In this document: piece after piece, positions 8,755 to 16,607 of the stretch
How positions within the stretch are numbered: the first letter of the stretch is position 1
How the letters are laid out: each line of letters begins with the position of its first letter
Origin: Nitrospirota bacterium
GTDB taxonomy: Bacteria; Nitrospirota; Nitrospiria; Nitrospirales; Nitrospiraceae
Direction of reading: 5' to 3'
DNA length: 42,500 bases
Assembly: GCA_030682135.1 (NCBI GenBank)
Contig: JAUXQT010000038.1
Location: 1 to 42,500 of the forward strand
Notes under the pieces: generated by a model
Told to the model about the DNA's origin: nothing
The model's database searches: none
What the model saw: only the letters and a program-made list of their open reading frames with translations
Position numbers and translations under genes: made by a program

Positions 8755-9189
8755 TTGGGCCGCTTGCTTCTGCGAGGGGTTAGGTCGTGGGCAGCGGAGA
8801 CGGTCGTCCCGCCTGCTCCGGCACTTCGGCGCGACCGCACTAAGTTTCTCATCTGCTCGACGCCGAAACTCGTTCCATTCCTCGTTTCGCCTGAATGGAA
8901 CTTCGAACATCGGCATCGCCAGCTGGAAGCTGGTCGCATCTGATCAACAAGTGTGGTCCCCCCGCCTCAGCGCAAGTCGCAGGAGGACAACCGTCTCCAC
9001 GCCCACCTAGAAATTACGGGAAGAGAAGAACCATGCTTGGCCGCACCGACAGAGCATGTACCCGCTCGCAAGTCGCAAGTGGACCCGCTATGCTCGACAA
9101 AGTAGAATGTCCCTGCTTTGTTGTCCGAGTTTTCTTGGCAAGGCCCGTTAAACGTTAATTCCGCGTCGTTCGCACACTTGGTAGATGAC
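8755..9189. other. Gap between core genome and first accessory gene
   Basis: No convincing gene is seen. The stretch holds GTTAGGT at 8779-8785 and GTTAAAC at 9147-9153, both of which match the integron recombination box GTTRRRY, but no paired left box or stem was found for either. The second lies 43 bases before the STAND gene start and could be the 5' edge of a gene cassette. A short motif, CGCAAGTCGCA, occurs twice (about 8971 and 9067). Confidence 0.45.
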
Positions 9190-11466
9190 ATGTTCGAACT
9201 ACATAACCTTGGCTGGAACGATTTTCAGCGGCTATGTCTCACTATCACAAGGGAGATCCTGGGACAGACAGTGGAGTCGTTTCTCGATTCTGGCGATGGC
9301 GGGCGCGATGGCGCCTTCACTGGCACATGGAGTGCCAAGGGACAGGAGAGCCTTAGCGGCCCTTTCGTAATCCAGTGTAAGTTCACCAGCAGGATCAACT
9401 ACGTCCTGAGAACGGCCGATCTATCAGACGAAGTCGAAAAGGCCAAGAAGCTTGTCGGGCAAGGCCTTTGCGACTCCTACGTGCTCATGACAAACGCGGG
9501 TCTGTCCGGTACTGGAGCTGGAAAGATCAAGGCCCTCTTCGAAAGTGCCGGGGTGAAGCACGTCGCGACGTTCGGTTCCACCTGGATAAACCAGCAAATT
9601 CTCGAGAATAAGCACCTCCGCATGCTCGTCCCGCGAGTATACGGACTAGGAGACTTAAGCCAGATTCTCGACGAGCGCGCCTACGTCCAAGCTCGAACTA
9701 TCCTTGAATCAATGCGCGAAGACCTCGCCAAGGTCGTCGTCACTGACGCCTACAGGAAAGCCGTCGACGCGATCAACAAGCACAGTTTCGTGCTCCTCAT
9801 CGGCGAGCCTGCTGCTGGCAAGACTACCATCGCATCCCTTCTGGCAATGGCGGCACTCGACCAGTGGAACGCCTCGACGCTCAAGCTCGACGATCCCGGC
9901 AAGGTCACCGAGCACTGGAACCCGGACGAGCCGTCGCAGTTCTTCTGGCTGGACGACGCCTTCGGAGTGACCCAGTACGAAGATTTCCTGGTCCACCGCT
10001 GGAATCACATCTTGCCGCAAATCAGGCCGATGCTCCGCAAAGGGGCGAAGATCGTCATGACGTCGCGCGACTACATTTACAACCGCGCGCGCAAGGACCT
10101 GAAGGTTAGCGCATTTCCGCTGCTGAAGGAGAGCCAGGTCGTGATCGATGTTCAGAATCTGTCCGCCGAAGAAAAACGCCAGATCCTGTACAACCATCTC
10201 AAGCTTGGAAGACAGCCACGCTCCTTCCGAACCGAGATCAAACCTTACCTTGAGGATGTCGCGAGCCATCAGCGCTTCATCCCGGAAACGGCGCGACGTC
10301 TGGGTGACCCACTTTTCACGAAGGACCTGTTCATCGACAAGTATTACATCGCCCAGTTCGTCGAGAGGCGCGAGCAACTTCTCCAGGAAGTGCTTCAGGG
10401 CCTCGACGCCGACAGCAAGGCGGCACTCGCGCTAATCTACATGCGCGACGGCCGTCTGGAAAGTCCGATCCAACTCCGGCCCTCAGAGACACAGGCTCTT
10501 GAGCGTCTCGGTAGTAATCTGGGTGGATGCGTCGCCGCGCTCGAAGCTCTGAAGGGTAGTCTTGCGCTGCTCTCTCACTCAAGCGGCGAGTATGTCTGGC
10601 AGTTCAAGCATCCAACTATCGGCGACGCGTACGCGGAAATTCTGGTCCAGAGTCCAGAGCACCTTGGCATCTACATGGAGGGCAGCGCCCCTGAGCGGCT
10701 AGTCGATCAAGTGACTTGCGGCGACGTCGGCATCGAAAAAGCGGTCGTGGTGCCAAAGTCATTGTTTCCGCAGATGCTCGCGAAACTTGAGGAACTGACG
10801 CGAAGCAAGTCGTATAAGTCCCCCTGGCTATCGACGTTTGGCGCGAAGCGGGACCTGCAAGGATTTCTCGCCCGCCGTTGCTCCAAGGAGTTCCTATCGC
10901 TGTATCTACAGGGCAATCCTGGCTTGCTCGACCAAGTCGCTGAACCCGGACTGTTCCTCGACACTGTACCGGAGGTGCGCCTAGCAAAGCGCCTCCATGA
11001 AGTCGGGCTCCTGCCGGAGGAGAAGAGGAAGAAGTTCGTTGAGACGGTGAGCAATTACGCTCTCGAGGGGCAGGATGTGGACGCTCTGGATGACGATGGA
11101 ATTCGAAATATTTTCACCGACGGTGAATTCGAAGAGTTGGTGCGAAGGGTGCAGACAGAGCTTCTGCCGCGGCTTGGGGATGTCCGGCGCGAGCGGGAAT
11201 CCAACCATTCATCAGACGAGCCGCCCGAAGAGTACATGCAGAAACTTCTCGAGCTATTCGACTCTCTAAAGAATAAATTCGGCGATGACGTGGACGCGGC
11301 CAAACTCATCGATCACGAAATACGGCGCACGAGCGAATGGATTGACGATAAAACGCCAGAGGAACCCAAAAGAGCCCCTCGAAAATTAGGAAAAGTCGAA
11401 ACGCAGGAAAAGCCACAAAGCACGCGCAGTATCTTCGACGACGTCGACGCGAATGAGGACGTGTAG
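9190..11466 (+). CDS. Restriction-endonuclease-like domain fused to a STAND NTPase (nSTAND3-like), predicted defence protein
   Basis: A protein of about 758 residues. The N-terminus (about 1-130) has a PD-(D/E)xK nuclease pattern like Mrr: the helix G-W-N-D-F-Q-R-L, the acidic G-G-R-D-G with Asp40, and I-Q-C-K with Gln62 and Lys64. A P-loop NTPase follows, with Walker A GEPAAGKTT at 205-213, Walker B F-F-W-L-D-D around Asp255-256, and sensor I-V-M-T-S-R-D-Y. The remaining 350 residues are helical and unassigned, probably the sensing part, as in Avs/STAND immune proteins. The ATG at 9190 is preferred; a TTG at 9118 would start upstream of the possible cassette edge at 9147. Defence function is inferred from domain architecture. 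Confidence 0.8.
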   Translation: MFELHNLGWNDFQRLCLTITREILGQTVESFLDSGDGGRDGAFTGTWSAKGQESLSGPFVIQCKFTSRINYVLRTADLSDEVEKAKKLVGQGLCDSYVLMTNAGLSGTGAGKIKALFESAGVKHVATFGSTWINQQILENKHLRMLVPRVYGLGDLSQILDERAYVQARTILESMREDLAKVVVTDAYRKAVDAINKHSFVLLIGEPAAGKTTIASLLAMAALDQWNASTLKLDDPGKVTEHWNPDEPSQFFWLDDAFGVTQYEDFLVHRWNHILPQIRPMLRKGAKIVMTSRDYIYNRARKDLKVSAFPLLKESQVVIDVQNLSAEEKRQILYNHLKLGRQPRSFRTEIKPYLEDVASHQRFIPETARRLGDPLFTKDLFIDKYYIAQFVERREQLLQEVLQGLDADSKAALALIYMRDGRLESPIQLRPSETQALERLGSNLGGCVAALEALKGSLALLSHSSGEYVWQFKHPTIGDAYAEILVQSPEHLGIYMEGSAPERLVDQVTCGDVGIEKAVVVPKSLFPQMLAKLEELTRSKSYKSPWLSTFGAKRDLQGFLARRCSKEFLSLYLQGNPGLLDQVAEPGLFLDTVPEVRLAKRLHEVGLLPEEKRKKFVETVSNYALEGQDVDALDDDGIRNIFTDGEFEELVRRVQTELLPRLGDVRRERESNHSSDEPPEEYMQKLLELFDSLKNKFGDDVDAAKLIDHEIRRTSEWIDDKTPEEPKRAPRKLGKVETQEKPQSTRSIFDDVDANEDV

Positions 11467-11556
11467 ACTGCATGACAATCTACTCCATCCGATTTGCCAG
11501 GAGTACAGCGGCGTCCTGGGACCCCATATCCGAACGCTGCACGAAGCACGCCGAGG

Positions 11557-11588
11557 GAAGACATAAGGGTCAGACCCCTTATGTCTTC
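11557..11588. repeat. Short palindrome behind the STAND gene
   Basis: The arms GAAGACATAAGGG and CCCTTATGTCTTC pair over 13 bases around a small loop, about 90 bases after the STAND stop codon. It could act as a transcription terminator or be a REP-like unit; there is no clear T-run. Confidence 0.5.
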
Positions 11589-11664
11589 GGGTCACAACCC
11601 AGACATTTCTTCCCCATATGTTTCACCCTGCCCGTCAGTGAGCGTTTCTACTCCTTTCTTTCAG

Positions 11665-11754
11665 ACTCAACGGCGCGAAGGTAGGCTGGGCTGGCAGCTC
11701 CGGCTTCGTCATGCTCAGAAATGTAGAATCCCTGTCTATCGTCGAGGGTTGAGC
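11665..11754 (+). other. Possible attC site (weak)
   Basis: The outer boxes ACTCAAC (11665-11671) and GTTGAGC (11748-11754) match the integron consensus RYYYAAC and GTTRRRY exactly and pair with each other. Inner segments CGCGA...TAGGC.GGG and CCC.GTCTA..CG.CG also pair with bulges. The 40-base terminal loop has no regular stem, so this is much less certain than the three other sites. It would be the attC of the STAND cassette. Confidence 0.4.
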
Positions 11755-11899
11755 CCTTCGCAGTCATAACTGTATTATGTCGGTCTGTGTAGCACCGCAC
11801 CGCCGTGTTGGGATAGAGGTGACAGGTCTATGAACCACCAGAAAAATTGCGCGAGAGTTGGCACACAGCATCTTATCGACCGATACCGATCCCGATGAG

Positions 11900-11965
11900 C
11901 GCTAACAAAGGCACGGAGCCGACGGCGCAGAAAACGCGCCTCGGTTCATGCCCAAACCGTTAGGC
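11900..11965 (+). other. attC-like integron recombination site 1
   Basis: The right box is GTTAGGC (11959-11965), a perfect GTTRRRY; the left box is GCTAAC (11901-11906). Between them GGCACGGAGCCGA pairs with TCGGTTCATGCC leaving one extrahelical G, then GGCGC pairs with GCGCC leaving an extrahelical C, with the loop AGAAAAC. Unpaired bases on one arm only are the hallmark of attC sites, which are recognised as folded single strands. Known proteobacterial cassette sites of the aadA type look very similar. Confidence 0.75.
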
Positions 11966-11999
11966 GACTCAGACCAGGACACCTGAAGGAACGCGAGAA

Positions 12000-14240
12000 A
12001 TGATTGAATCCATGACCATTGCTAACACCGCCACTTTCGGCCCCGTCCCCGAAGTACTGAACAAGCTATCTCAATTCAATTTCTTATTCGGCGCGAACGG
12101 TACTGGCAAAACTACGGTCAGCCGGGTCATCGCAGATGAGAACAACTTCCCAACCTGCACTGTTACATGGAAAGCGGGAACAAAACTACAGCCGATGGTT
12201 TACAACCACGATTTCGTGGAGCGGAACTTCACTCAATCGACGGAGCTGAAAGGTGTTTTCACGCTCGGCGAAAAACAGGTCGATACGCTCACCAAGATCG
12301 CCGCCGCGAAGGTCGAACTCGACAGACTCACTACGAAAATCGAAGACCTTACTCAGGCACTGCACGGCGCGAATGGGACAGGCGGCAAGAAGGGCGAGCT
12401 GGCGATGCTTGAGACAGGCTTGAAAGACAAATGCTGGGCGCAGAAGCAAAAACACGATGCCAAGCTCCAAGGCGCATTTGAAAGCTATCGAGGAAGCTCG
12501 GAGAAATTCAAAACAAAGGTAGTCCAAGAGTTGGCAGAAAACACCGCCACACTCCTGACTCTTACGGAGCTAGAGAATAAGTCGGAATCAATCTTCGGCC
12601 CAACGCCAACCACGGAGCAGGCCGTCCCTGCGATTGAATCGTCAACGCTAATCAGCCACGAAACTAATCCAATTCTGAAAAAGCGAGTCATCGGCAAGGA
12701 TGGCGTCGATATCGCTGCGATGATCAAGAAGCTGGGGAACAGCGATTGGGTGCGTGAAGGCCGGACATTTCATGACGAGAACGGCAGCGTCTGTCCGTTT
12801 TGCCAGCGGCGCACGACCGAGGCCTTCGCTCAGAGCCTAAACGAGTATTTCGACGATACGTTTGTGACGGACAGCAAGGCCATCGCCGACCTCGCTACCA
12901 ACTATTCAACAGACGCCGCCCGGCTTCAGCAGCAAATCGCGTCGATCATTGCGTCACCTTCCCGGTTCCTAGATGTTGAGAAACTGAAGACAGAAAAGGC
13001 ACTGCTCGACTCCAAGGTGTCTATCAACGTCCAGCGGCTTGTTGGGAAAAAGAAGGAGGCGAGTCAGGTTGTTGAACTGGAATCCCTGAGCAACGTAGCC
13101 GCAGCAATCAAGGATTTAATTGATTCCGCAAATGTTCTCGTGGCGGCACATAACAAGATGGTCAAGAATCTCCCTCAAGAGCGCAGCACACTGACATCGC
13201 AGGTGTGGAAGTATGTGCTGGAGGAACTCAAAACCGACCTCACTGCATATAAGACCACGCGCGATGGTCTGGATAAAGCGATCACTGCCATGAACGGGCA
13301 GATTGCGGCGGCGACAACGGACAAAACAAAGAAAGTCGGCGAGATCCGCGAACTCGAGAAGCAGACGACGAGCGTTCAGCCAACGATTGACGCGATCAAT
13401 GCTCTGCTCGTGTCCTTCGGGTTTCATGGCTTCTCGCTCGCGAAAACTGCAAGTGCCACCTCCTACAAATTGATTCGCCCCAATGGTTCAGATGCGAAGG
13501 AAACACTGAGTGAAGGCGAAAAAACATTCGTCACGTTCCTTTATTTCTACCACCTGCTCAAAGGCAGCGTCTCGGATAGTGGCATGACAACGGACCGCGT
13601 CGTTGTGTTTGACGACCCCGTTTCGAGTCTCGACAGCGACATCTTGTTCATCGTTGGAAGTCTCATCAAAGGACTGTTCGACGAGGTGCGATTGCGGACA
13701 GGACACATCAAGCAAATCTTCGTGCTCACGCATAACGTGTACTTCCACAAGGAAGTCACCTATAACCGGAAGCGTCCACGCAATGGCGTACTGAACGAGG
13801 AGACATTCTGGATCGTCAAGAAATCTGGGCTGGTATCCAACCTAGCCGCCCAGACGACCAACCCGATCAAGACGTCATACGAGTTGCTTTGGTCTGAAGT
13901 CCGGAAGCCGGAGCGCTCAAATCTCGCCATTCAAAACACACTGCGGCGCATCCTGGAGAACTACTTCAAAATTTTTGGTGACATCGAGCTGGACGAGCTT
14001 TGCGCAATGTTTGACGGACGGGAGAAGATTATCTGCAAGTCCCTTTGCTCGTGGGTGCATGATGGTTCGCATTATGCCCACGACGACCTCTACGTCTCGA
14101 TCGACGATTCGACGGTCGAAAACTACCTCAAAGTCTTCAGAGAAATCTTCGTCAAGGCACACCACGAAGGGCACTACAAAATGATGATGGGAGATGCATT
14201 TGTCGAGGAGTCCGTGCAGGCTGCACCACGCGAGACCTGA
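12000..14240 (+). CDS. AAA_13 family ATPase with zinc-hook-like motif, candidate PrrC/RloC-like anticodon nuclease
   Basis: A 746-residue SMC-like ATPase. Walker A is FGANGTGKTT at 30-39, the signature L-S-E-G-E-K-T-F is at 503-510, and Walker B V-V-V-F-D-D-P lies around 538-539. A coiled-coil middle (about 95-480) contains C265-P-F-C268, like the zinc hook of RloC. The C-terminus has R649-x3-E653 and H687 (or H691), matching the Arg-Glu-His spacing of PrrC-type anticodon nucleases. These proteins cut tRNA when phage attack disables the host. Function is inferred; many AAA_13 proteins are uncharacterised. The stop is three bases before an attC-like site and another lies just upstream, so this is a complete gene cassette. 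By eye it is less GC-rich than its neighbours. Confidence 0.78.
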   Translation: MIESMTIANTATFGPVPEVLNKLSQFNFLFGANGTGKTTVSRVIADENNFPTCTVTWKAGTKLQPMVYNHDFVERNFTQSTELKGVFTLGEKQVDTLTKIAAAKVELDRLTTKIEDLTQALHGANGTGGKKGELAMLETGLKDKCWAQKQKHDAKLQGAFESYRGSSEKFKTKVVQELAENTATLLTLTELENKSESIFGPTPTTEQAVPAIESSTLISHETNPILKKRVIGKDGVDIAAMIKKLGNSDWVREGRTFHDENGSVCPFCQRRTTEAFAQSLNEYFDDTFVTDSKAIADLATNYSTDAARLQQQIASIIASPSRFLDVEKLKTEKALLDSKVSINVQRLVGKKKEASQVVELESLSNVAAAIKDLIDSANVLVAAHNKMVKNLPQERSTLTSQVWKYVLEELKTDLTAYKTTRDGLDKAITAMNGQIAAATTDKTKKVGEIRELEKQTTSVQPTIDAINALLVSFGFHGFSLAKTASATSYKLIRPNGSDAKETLSEGEKTFVTFLYFYHLLKGSVSDSGMTTDRVVVFDDPVSSLDSDILFIVGSLIKGLFDEVRLRTGHIKQIFVLTHNVYFHKEVTYNRKRPRNGVLNEETFWIVKKSGLVSNLAAQTTNPIKTSYELLWSEVRKPERSNLAIQNTLRRILENYFKIFGDIELDELCAMFDGREKIICKSLCSWVHDGSHYAHDDLYVSIDDSTVENYLKVFREIFVKAHHEGHYKMMMGDAFVEESVQAAPRET

Positions 14241-14243
14241 ATC

Positions 14244-14305
14244 GCCTAACAACGGCATGCAGCCGACGCCAAGAAGCCGCGCGCGGCTGATGCCGGACAT
14301 TATCC
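14244..14305 (+). other. attC-like integron recombination site 2
   Basis: The left box GCCTAAC is a perfect RYYYAAC. CGGCATGCAGCCG pairs with CGGCTGATGCCG leaving an extrahelical G, then a further extrahelical A precedes CGC/GCG. The right box reads ATTATCC where GTTATCC is seen in site 3, so the recombination G appears mutated to A and the site may be inactive on that side. It directly follows the AAA_13 stop codon, as expected for a cassette. Confidence 0.75.
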
Positions 14306-14442
14306 TTCCCGTGCCCAGTGGAAATGGTGGGCGATCTGAGACTTGTGAAGGATTAAGTCAGGAGAGGTTCCTCCCCGGCATCACATCTGTCTCAACAATT
14401 CCTTCTAAGCTTGCGGATCTCTTCTCCCCCAACGCCGCCCGC

Positions 14443-14483
14443 TGCTGCTGACGCGTGCATCAGCGCTCCTGCTGAGTCTCGCC
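14443..14483. repeat. REP-like module 1, copy A
   Basis: About 41 bases beginning TGCTGCTGACGCG and ending GAGTCTCGCC, repeated with few changes at 15721-15761. Its first half is a small hairpin with GCTGA pairing to TCAGC. Confidence 0.65.
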
Positions 14484-14646
14484 ATAGTGAAGTCACGCGG
14501 CCCGCTTCCAGCGGGTGGCACAGACTGTTCGACGCTCCGTTCGACCATCGGTCGGAACGGAGCTAGTTTCTGTGCCAAGCGTGGCTGAGCGTGATGGCGA
14601 GCCAGCAGGGCGCTGGCAAGAGCGGAAGCAGTAGCGGGCGTCCCAT

Positions 14647-14746
14647 CCTGTACTGTTCGAGACTCGGCGAGTTTACAGGCTTCGAGCGAGCAAGGCGTAG
14701 TTGGGTGATTCAGGAGGCCTTGCGGCGGCGCGCATCCTCTCGATCG
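14647..14746. repeat. REP-like module 2, copy A (half element)
   Basis: A 100-base segment from CCTGTACTGTTCGAG to CTCGATCG, nearly identical to 16046-16145. In copy B this is the right half of a 193-bp palindrome; here the left half is missing, so copy A is truncated. Confidence 0.75.
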
Positions 14747-14797
14747 ACACTTCCCGGCTGGCAAGAGCGGAAGCAGTGTGGGCGGCGGTCTGGGAGT

Positions 14798-14833
14798 GGG
14801 ACAGGCACAGCCGAAGACGGCTGAGCCAGTCCC
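14798..14833. repeat. REP-like hairpin module 3, copy A
   Basis: GGGACAGGCACAGCCG pairs with CGGCTGAGCCAGTCCC around an AAGA loop. The same hairpin plus the following CTTGGGCTCAAT occurs at 15891-15926. Its form recalls REP units moved by Y1-type REP-associated transposases; none is encoded in this window. Confidence 0.7.
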
Positions 14834-14970
14834 CTTGGGCTCAATTTATTCCCCTCCCCCGCATCGCGACGAACCGTCGCCAGCTTCACTTCGCAACCCT
14901 CGCTTCGCATACACATGCGGAACGTTATACGTCTTGAGCACATACGGCACACAGGTGTACAATCTCGGAC

Positions 14971-15249
14971 GTGAAGCCCATCAGATGGAACTCCGAGAAG
15001 AGTCTTTTGCTCAAAGCGGAGCGCGGCGTTTCATTCGAAGAAGTTCTTTCTGCGATCTCGCAGGATGGTCTCATCAGCGTGATGGACCATCCCAACCGGG
15101 CAAAGTATGCGCATCAAAAGATGCTTGTGGTTGCAATACGGGGCTACGCGTACCTCGTTCCTTATGTTGAAAACGAGCACGAGATTTTCCTGAAAAGCAT
15201 CATGCCCAGCCGCAAGGCGACGCGCGACTTCCTATCTGGAGGCAAGTGA
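14971..15249 (+). CDS. BrnT-like toxin of a type II toxin-antitoxin pair
   Basis: A 92-residue small protein starting with GTG. The N-terminal K-P-I-R-W-N-S-E-K-S, then R-G-V-S-F-E-E-V-L, and the C-terminal E-I-F-L-K-S-I-M-P-S-R-K-A-T resemble the BrnT/RelE-fold family of ribonuclease toxins. The CopG-like antitoxin starts two bases after its stop codon, the usual toxin-first order for brnT-brnA pairs. No good Shine-Dalgarno sequence is seen before the GTG, and the Met-poor start leaves the exact N-terminus uncertain. The pair lies between cassette-type recombination signals, a common location for toxin-antitoxin genes in chromosomal integrons. Confidence 0.75.
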   Translation: MKPIRWNSEKSLLLKAERGVSFEEVLSAISQDGLISVMDHPNRAKYAHQKMLVVAIRGYAYLVPYVENEHEIFLKSIMPSRKATRDFLSGGK

Positions 15250-15250
15250 G

Positions 15251-15574
15251 ATGAATGACGAAAAATTGTTGGAACAGGAGATTCTGGCCTCTTTCGATCG
15301 GGGTGAGTGGAAATCCGTTCGGAACCAGAAAGGCGAGATTGCGCGGATCAAGGCAGCGGCCACGGCTACCTTGCTTAAGAACAAACGGGTCAACATTCGC
15401 ATCTCGTCGCGTGACCTCGAGGGACTGCAGGCCCGGGCTGCCGAGGAGGGTGTTCCATACCAGACACTCATGGCGAGCGTCCTTCACAAATTTGTATCTG
15501 GTCGTCTAGTTGAGACGCACCAACGCATGCCTACTCGAACAAGCCGGACGGTGCGCAAGCGCACCGCCGCTTAG
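15251..15574 (+). CDS. CopG/ribbon-helix-helix antitoxin
   Basis: A 107-residue antitoxin of the CopG type (CopG_antitoxin family). The core is R-V-N-I-R-I-S-S-R-D-L-E-G-L-Q-A-R-A-A-E-E-G-V-P-Y-Q-T-L (about 41-68), which supplies a DNA-binding beta strand and two helices, followed by H-K-F-V-S-G-R-L-V-E. The N-terminal 35 residues, beginning N-D-E-K-L-L-E-Q-E, should contact the toxin. The last 18 or so residues (from about H90 on, rich in Arg and Thr) are encoded by the left half of an attC-like site, so they are probably a by-product of cassette formation. It likely represses its own operon together with the toxin. Confidence 0.82.
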   Translation: MNDEKLLEQEILASFDRGEWKSVRNQKGEIARIKAAATATLLKNKRVNIRISSRDLEGLQARAAEEGVPYQTLMASVLHKFVSGRLVETHQRMPTRTSRTVRKRTAA

Positions 15575-15588
15575 GGCAGACGTTATCC
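15518..15588 (+). other. attC-like integron recombination site 3, overlapping the antitoxin gene
   Basis: The left box is CACCAAC and the right box GTTATCC; the invariant AAC and GTT pair. AACG..TGCC pairs with GGCA..CGTT, and then AAGCCGGACGGTGCGC pairs with GCGCACCGCCGCTT over 14 base pairs, leaving an extrahelical C and an extrahelical A on the left arm only. The outer boxes are weaker matches than in sites 1 and 2, but the one-sided bulges are the expected attC feature. The antitoxin stop codon lies inside the right arm. Confidence 0.65.
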
Positions 15589-15720
15589 AGTGTACGACCG
15601 CCTCTTATAGGGGGAAGGGCAGAAAAAGTTCCGGAGTCTTAACTGCTCATGGTTCGTCAAAAAAACTCCAGCCCCATTCCCCTCCCCTGCAGACTACTTC
15701 TCTTTCTTAGCATCGCCGGT

Positions 15721-15761
15721 TGCTGCTGACGCGCGCATCAGCGCCTCTGCTGAGTCTCGCC
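15721..15761. repeat. REP-like module 1, copy B
   Basis: Second copy of the TGCTGCTGACGCG...GAGTCTCGCC module found at 14443-14483, differing at a few positions. Confidence 0.65.
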
Positions 15762-15890
15762 CGAGCCAGCAATATTCATGAGCGCTTCCGCTGCAATCGT
15801 GGATTCGCCGCTATGACAAGCCTGGACGCGGTAGCCCGGCGTCCAGGCAGGCGGGGTGCGCGTGAAGGCAAGCAGCAGGGACCCGAAAGC

Positions 15891-15926
15891 GGGACAGGCA
15901 CCGCCGAAGACGGCTGAGCCAGTCCC
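15891..15926. repeat. REP-like hairpin module 3, copy B
   Basis: GGGACAGGCACCGCCG and CGGCTGAGCCAGTCCC form the same hairpin as 14798-14833, and the following CTTGGGCTCAAT is shared too. Confidence 0.7.
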
Positions 15927-15952
15927 CTTGGGCTCAATCTATGCTTCAAAGT

Positions 15953-16145
15953 CGATTGGGAGGATCGTGGCCGCCGCTGACCGGATGAAGCGGGACCCAA
16001 CTTGCCGCAGCCTGCGACCGTTGCTCTCCAGTCGCAACGGCGAAGCCTGTACTGTTCGAGGCTCGGCGAGTTTACAGGCTTCGAGCACGCGCGGCGTAGT
16101 TGGGTGATTCAGGAGGTCTTGCGGCGGCACGCATCCTCCCGATCG
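15953..16145. repeat. 193-bp palindromic element with imperfect terminal inverted repeats
   Basis: The left end (15953-15977, CGATTGGGAGGATCGTGG then CCGCCGC) pairs with the right end (16121-16145). Further in, GACC...TGAA...ACCCAACT pairs with AGTTGGGTGATTCAGG...GTC, and AGCCTGTA pairs with TACAGGCT near the tip. It could be a MITE-like element, a structured RNA, or a terminator for convergent genes. Its right 100 bases are module 2 copy B. Confidence 0.65.
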
Positions 16146-16151
16146 GCGATC

Positions 16152-16607
16152 CTATGCTTTGGTTTTCATCTCGGCAGCGGACTCTGACTCGGCGGCTTCG
16201 CCACCTTCTTCTTCGACCGGCTTTTCTTCCTCCGGCACATCGAACCAGGACACGACCATCTCGTCCCACCAGGCTTCATCGATCTCTTTCCCTGGATCGG
16301 TGCCAAGAAACGAGACCTCATCCTTTGTAATATCGGGACCGACCACCTGGGGCTGGAACTTCGCCCGGTCGATAATCTCTTTCGTCGCATAGCCTCCGAC
16401 GATCCAGGAGTCAGGATCGGCGCGGCGCGATTTGTAGGCCTTGAGCCCGATCTTGAGATACATAAAGATCTGCTGTTGTGCAGGATCCCCGACGCCTGAC
16501 TGCGGCAAGCCCAGCGTCTTTTCGATCTTCTTGCGCCAATGCCGGTCGTCGTATCTCGACGTAATCAACTGGAGCATCGTCTTTCCAAGTTCGGCATCAA
16601 GCGGCAT
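16152..16607 (-). CDS. Hypothetical protein with acidic tail
   Basis: A 151-residue soluble protein that I do not recognise. The first 110 residues look like a compact fold (D-D-R-H-W-R-K-K-I-E-K-T-L-G-L-P, then Q-Q-Q-I-F-M-Y-L-K-I-G-L-K-A-Y); the last 30 residues are a Glu/Ala-rich, probably disordered tail. No signal peptide or membrane segment is seen. AAAGGA lies about 11 bases before the ATG. It is followed by the 193-bp palindrome and shares the strand of the YbhB, pmbA and tldD genes, from which it is separated by 50 bases, so it may be the last gene of that operon. Confidence 0.65.
   Translation of the reverse strand: MPLDAELGKTMLQLITSRYDDRHWRKKIEKTLGLPQSGVGDPAQQQIFMYLKIGLKAYKSRRADPDSWIVGGYATKEIIDRAKFQPQVVGPDITKDEVSFLGTDPGKEIDEAWWDEMVVSWFDVPEEEKPVEEEGGEAAESESAAEMKTKA

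Follow-up and report, generated by a model that had tools for sequence, protein, structure and literature searches.

The RloC-like gene and its surroundings

The gene considered here lies in a window of 42,500 nucleotides (the whole stretch of DNA that was analysed), and in a Pfam search its product matches the AAA_13 family (PF13166) over essentially its full length (residues 12-717; E 3.5e-187). The same protein is matched end to end by the PADLOC model PDC-S06 (954 bits), and weakly, across residues 500-694, by the PADLOC model for PrrC. A scan of named genomes returned 80 RloC-like homologues, 41-84% identical and drawn from many phyla, the nearest of them at 84% identity; the conservation counts given throughout come from an alignment of 75 homologue sequences. 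Features of the gene and of the surrounding DNA are collected in Table 1.

Table 1. Coordinates of the RloC-like gene, its motifs and the elements around it (window positions unless a locus is named).
Feature	Position	Strand	Remarks
Left conserved neighbour, putative uracil-DNA glycosylase	8101-8754		
Gene with nSTAND3 and weak Mrr-like domains, upstream of cassette	9118-11466	+	PADLOC PDC-S73
attI-like element	11696-11895	+	Degenerate core; runs into left attC
Left attC	11900-11965	+	Score 16.05; R' box GTTAGGC intact; 34 nt before ATG
Gene cassette, predicted crossover to crossover	11960-14299	+	2,340 bp; G/TT rule (slash at crossover)
RloC-like AAA_13 open reading frame	12000-14240	+	746 aa; PADLOC PDC-S06
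Walker A, GANGTGKT, residues 31-38	12090-12113	+	G31, G36 and K37 invariant where the row has a letter
CPFC, zinc-hook-like, residues 265-268	12792-12803	+	C265 74/75, C268 75/75
ABC signature, LSEG, residues 503-506	13506-13517	+	L503 74/75, S504 75/75, E505 74/75, G506 74/75
Walker B/D-loop, DDPVSSLD, residues 538-545	13611-13634	+	D538, P540, S542 and D545 invariant
R649-x3-E653	13944-13958	+	R649 75/75, E653 74/75; aligns with PrrC R-x3-E
H687, histidine of the first-pass annotation	14058-14060	+	Not conserved
S690-H691, likely catalytic histidine	14067-14072	+	S690 75/75, H691 74/75; aligns with PrrC Ser-His
Right attC	14244-14305	+	Score 16.85; R' box ATTATCC; 4 nt after stop
Right-hand host sequence common to genus genomes	14300-14640		Joined at the same point in G140, G152 and G163
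Repeats	14436-14850 and 15714-16145		90-95% identical; flank BrnT/BrnA-like pair
BrnT/BrnA-like toxin-antitoxin pair	14971-15574		Adjoins cassette; below Pfam cut-offs
Right conserved neighbour gene	16152-16607		
attI-like core TACTATGCCGGTCAGTATACTCAATAGTTAG, copies	L176:2146-2176, L177:2446-2476, L178:2022-2052	-	

A Pfam search of the neighbouring genes in the window found none of the restriction-modification (R-M) type, which bears out the first-pass annotation in seeing no type I restriction system near the gene. The same annotation had described RloC as often linked to R-M systems; in the published survey this is rare, with 8 of 72 RloC genes lying in R-M loci (PMC2610378), and the missing R-M genes are thus quite ordinary. 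The idea that cassette-borne members avoid R-M genes was dropped, given R-M-type neighbours in 5 of 19 rows of the cassette clade described below and in 22 of 64 other homologue flanks. In 13 homologue loci (e.g. L037, L040-L042, L045 and L049) the RloC-like gene has a DUF2130 gene nearby, a possible partner.

ATPase head and CxxC insert

Walker A, the ABC signature, Walker B/D-loop and the switch histidine are all near-invariant across the 75 homologues. The N- and C-terminal ABC halves are predicted to come together as a Rad50/SMC-like head; in a fold search the modelled head resembles Rad50 and SMC proteins, as illustrated by 5da9_B (Z 17.3, rmsd 3.0, 236 residues). Between the two halves, within a helical region, sits the CxxC motif, in an insert that is missing from both of the PrrC proteins aligned here.

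The full-length protein was modelled with AlphaFold2 from a 72-row alignment, giving a mean pLDDT of 84.8 and a pTM of 0.56. In this model (pTM 0.56) the first arm of the helical CxxC insert is broken into short helices, and the CxxC itself is not seen at the tip of a simple long antiparallel coiled coil; because the arm breaks up in this way, a simple zinc-hook coiled coil is unsupported by the model. The zinc-hook-like CxxC of the earlier description is itself conserved.

The nuclease motif

Checked against the sequence, C265-P-F-C268, R649, E653 and H687 all lie where the first-pass annotation had placed them. That annotation took H687, 34 residues after E653, as the third member of an Arg-Glu-His triad, and regarded the spacing as close to that of PrrC. 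Among the homologues, however, position 687 is Asn in 52 sequences, His in 21 and Gln in 2, whereas H691 is kept in 74 of the 75; the expected conservation is thus found for R649, E653 and H691, but not for H687. Alignment with two PrrC proteins, found with the PADLOC PrrC model, divides the proposal in the same way: in both, the R-x3-E pairs with R649/E653, and the Ser-His pairs with S690-H691 rather than with H687. Since S690-H691 is both conserved and PrrC-aligned, and position 687 is variable, the histidine originally chosen was the wrong one, and H687 is ruled out as the catalytic residue by its conservation (Asn in 52 of 75) together with the PrrC alignment.

The corrected motif reads R649-x3-E653-x37-(S690)H691. 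With H691, the distance from Glu to His is 38 residues and not 34, and the spacing is therefore that of RloC, contrary to the closeness to PrrC (triad R320-E324-H356; PMC2610378) that had been proposed; x37 falls inside the range of the published RloC rule, R-x3-E-x36-52-H, in which a Ser often precedes the His (PMC2610378). Likeness to RloC was judged here by this motif rule, and direct alignment was made with the PrrC proteins, whose genes both adjoin hsdS and a RhuM-type gene by our reading of the flanking open reading frames. Conservation and the PrrC alignment together uphold the RloC-like identity suggested at the outset and, going by its sequence, the gene very probably belongs to the RloC-type family.

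When modelled alone, the nuclease domain is all helical (pLDDT 82.6), with R649 and E653 sharing a helix and S690-H691 lying where a second helix ends; in the full model, residues 686-700, which hold both histidines, have pLDDT values below 50. Solved structures searched by sequence gave no relative of this domain. As a fold search with the domain also gave no clear solved relative, we take its assignment to HEPN from the literature, where both RloC and PrrC are so classified (PMC3710099). HEPN toxins did appear in the fold search, at Z 3.6-3.7, below other rows of up to 6.7; viral M2-1/VP30 rows, which ranked above HEPN, were set aside, as helical domains can be expected to give Z values in their range (<7).

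HEPN RNases act on a variety of targets, RNase LS and LsoA for instance cutting mRNA (PMC3710099), and the homologues are only ~26-28% identical to the nearest RloC-annotated record and to plasmid relatives; one might then picture an ABC-ATPase whose HEPN-like RNase cuts mRNA, rRNA or some other site in tRNA. We consider this unlikely, as the R-x3-E-x37-(S)H spacing and the CxxC both fit RloC, a tRNA cutter by experiment. An RloC-family anticodon nuclease, by contrast, is the reading that we regard as probable on the combined analysis: a tRNA-cutting enzyme, carried as one cassette in an integrase-less chromosomal integron.

attC sites and cassette limits

Strict regular expressions for attC missed the left site, and a scored search with shuffled controls was used instead; the score, computed with our own scripts rather than with IntegronFinder, looks for paired R boxes and then for the spacer and imperfect stem. 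It was tuned (first strict, later looser) with these sites in view, and favours them. Three lines of support are independent of the score: homologue flanks with attC at a constant distance, an array around one homologue and the junctions within the genus, all described below.

The left site contributes the GTT crossover point through its GTTAGGC (11959-11965), and its hairpin folds better as DNA than shuffled sequence does, with z of about -3 on either strand. At the right site the crossover base is A instead of G, the TTATCC being host sequence. Tight attC-like bounds and a cassette of about 2.3 kb had both been noted in the first-pass annotation, and the scores (at least 16 on both sides), the few nucleotides between each site and the gene, and the length by the G/TT rule agree with this.

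Taken by itself, the score of the left attC is unexceptional in 42.5 kb of shuffled sequence, and the assembly has no integrase, such that both sites might be chance hairpins beside an ordinary chromosomal island gene. This we hold to be exceedingly improbable in light of what was seen elsewhere: six homologue flanks scoring at this level where 0.1 would be expected; an array in L039; four genomes with differing attC-like ends on one host sequence; and an attI-like element that is linked to intI in other genomes. The left attC is convincing because it stands beside the gene, with the same arrangement in homologues and at a genus-wide locus. The gene at 12000-14240 is, we conclude, almost certainly packaged as a single-gene integron cassette, as originally proposed, a claim now supported by the attC-flanked homologues and by the genus-wide attI/cassette locus.

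attC-flanked homologues in other phyla

Of 162 homologue flanks, six carry an attC scoring at least 16, as compared with 0.1 expected from Markov-shuffled flanks: both sides of the window gene, both sides of L039, the right side of L053 and the left side of L019. A search for homologues that are also attC-flanked had been suggested, and it has thus turned up three with strong sites. Outside the window, the sites lie 33 nt ahead of the start codon or 12-13 nt beyond the stop. The L039 gene sits in an array, since a further attC is found at 1093-1148; in its contig this RloC-like copy is broken into two frames. Weaker or partial attC sites accompany L018, L029 and L035.

The four clear cases (window, L039, L053 and L019), which share the arrangement across different phyla, fall in one 19-row clade (SH-aLRT 96) whose rows are labelled Nitrospirota, Pseudomonadota, Actinomycetota, Planctomycetota, Chlorobiota, Krumholzibacteriota and others; individual labels may be wrong, as several rows are contigs of metagenome-assembled genomes (MAGs). 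We tentatively suggest, with the balance tipping slightly the other way, that this cross-phylum RloC clade might spread as cassettes, and that the Nitrospira-like host lineage might keep integrase-less attI platforms at set places in the chromosome, where single cassettes are captured using an integrase from elsewhere. RloC lends itself to a one-gene cassette, because it needs neither an antitoxin nor a restriction partner, and the many phyla that have it offer a natural set for asking whether RloC alone protects.

At L018, a Planctomycetota MAG contig, a Phd/YefM-ParE toxin-antitoxin pair (L018:47-648) comes immediately before the partial attC and the RloC-like gene, and is perhaps the preceding cassette.

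A capture site shared across the genus

The two conserved genes that bound the locus on the left and right (Table 1) neighbour each other across the genus. Of 15 genomes compared, 6 have a gap of 67-110 bp between the two and the other 9 one of 1.3-4.2 kb; in the window it is 7.4 kb (8755-16151). Across these loci (L141-L155), the six short gaps leave the spot nearly empty, and the nine longer ones hold different small modules, some with attC, including strong sites in G141 (17.55) and G152 (18.0).

On the left, the cassette genes of G141, G152 and G163 are preceded by a common sequence ending CTCAATAG/TTAG. On the right, the window, G140, G152 and G163 have differing ends, attC-like by our reading, joined to one right-hand sequence at the expected crossover; this sequence starts TTATCC, or TTGTCC in G140. 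The cassette boundaries match the predicted crossover in all four of these genomes. The junction that a site with zero cassettes would have, CTCAATAG/TTATCC, gave no match in the genus within 2 mismatches. Cassette capture is recurrent at this genus locus, whose empty and filled sites allow a direct test of capture where no integrase is resident.

The sequence upstream of the window's cassette belongs to the same element: positions 11696-11873 share 85% identity with the DNA that precedes the G141 cassette gene, and 11781-11862 share 81% with the G152 element. The element is recognisable to about 11873, beyond which its core is altered, and it abuts the left attC directly. Matches to the core, TACTATGCCGGTCAGTATACTCAATAGTTAG, occur in 35 of 175 family genomes, and a second copy in the window's own genome stands before another gene on contig C72. 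BLAST of the window flanks against a first set of intI loci gave no match; a later search with the element found copies linked to intI, with the core downstream of intI and on the same strand in two genomes. In G105 the intI is frame-broken and the element follows it by ~135 bp; in G132 the element follows intI by ~1.5 kb, with attC further on. From its sequence and position we read the left element as a putative attI.

Relatives of the upstream nSTAND3 gene adjoin RloC-like genes at two further loci, L098 (3689-5062) and L092 (5291-7570). A functional pairing of the RloC-like gene with this nSTAND3 and Mrr-like nuclease gene, which such adjacency could suggest, seems very unlikely to us: the attI-like element and attC separate the two genes in the window, their order and strand vary among the window, L098 and L092, and no attC-flanked relative belongs to the cluster with nSTAND3 neighbours.

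On the other side of the cassette, the stretch with the BrnT/BrnA-like pair has a counterpart of ~90% identity at this locus in G140 (L142:1935-2538). Additional copies of the repeats flanking the pair occur here in other genomes of the genus as well.

Integrase and present mobility

The assembly (99.96% complete, 113 contigs) yielded no integron integrase over the curated cut-off; amongst the 175 family genomes 18 have one, two of them in the same genus. A complete integron has intI and attI beside its cassettes, and what is found here is no intI and an attI-like core that is degenerate. Clusters of attC sites lacking integrases (CALIN elements) have been reported earlier in Nitrospira (PMC9024848), and the present host resembles a relative of Nitrospira: its PmbA shares 71-74% identity with the PmbA of two Nitrospira-named genomes, as compared with 39-45% for two proteobacteria. 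The locus is best read as an integrase-less chromosomal integron, holding an RloC cassette without a tie to restriction genes.

The A at the right crossover base and the degenerate attI core suggest that present mobility is poor, and the cassette may no longer move. Together with the lack of an integrase above the cut-off, these signs might be extended to an inactive or decaying copy, in which the gene is still readable and protection or mobility has been lost. We give such decay little credence, as the signs bear on mobility and not on the gene, whose 746-aa frame is intact, has all of the ATPase and nuclease motifs and retains 84% identity to its nearest homologue.

Proposed mechanism

Following the preferred reading of an RloC-family anticodon nuclease, and extrapolating from RloC itself, we speculate that the head would respond to DNA ends, or to damage, that phage or restriction attack produces and would hydrolyse nucleotide, and that the CxxC would serve to restrain the nuclease. 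Upon release, R649, E653 and H691 might then cut the anticodon loop of tRNA; translation would stop and the spread of phage might thereby be limited. RloC is characterised by anticodon cleavage in which the wobble nucleotide is excised, by activation through DNA breaks and by a Zn-dependent restraint. Agents that induce double-strand breaks switch on the RloC of Acinetobacter baylyi, where tRNA-Glu and tRNA-Gln undergo partial disruption (PMC3874168). The cassette itself would have been brought by an integron integrase that is either absent from the genome or unassembled.

Relation to known systems

The predicted protein shares with RloC of Geobacillus kaustophilus and A. baylyi (PMC2610378, PMC3874168) the ABC ATPase, the CxxC insert and the C-terminal R-x3-E-x36-52-H, and it lacks R-M linkage, as RloC usually does; it differs in being carried as an integron cassette, and its nuclease function is a prediction from sequence. 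With PrrC it has in common the ABC motifs as well as the aligned R-x3-E and Ser-His. PrrC, however, is without the CxxC insert, is about half the length (~370-400 aa as against 746 aa), and is kept silent by PrrI, the type I R-M enzyme to which it is linked; the window gene has no such enzyme beside it. PDC-S06, the full-length match in PADLOC, is a computational candidate with no attached mechanism.

Defence genes in the cassettes of chromosomal and mobile integrons are already known, from 2025 papers as cited in PMC12444791, and the arrangement here is similar, with attC sites of a chromosomal array on either side of a defence-type gene. Set against those cassettes, as far as they are described there, the present one is of RloC type, stands in an integrase-less locus of a Nitrospira-like host and is a single large cassette. 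A search of titles, abstracts and term counts, with the cassette lists of the 2025 papers lying outside it, found no description of RloC combined with integrons; within that literature, RloC and cassette-borne defence genes each being known, their combination appears to be unreported. The carrier is unusual and the capture site unusually clear, and the gene brings together two topics of active study: suicide enzymes that cut tRNA, and the storing of defence genes in integrons.

A protein of Streptococcus phage Javan105 (L112:2959-5220) is named RloC in its record. Its nuclease may be altered, as Asp replaces the catalytic Glu and the Ser-His is missing at the aligned place.
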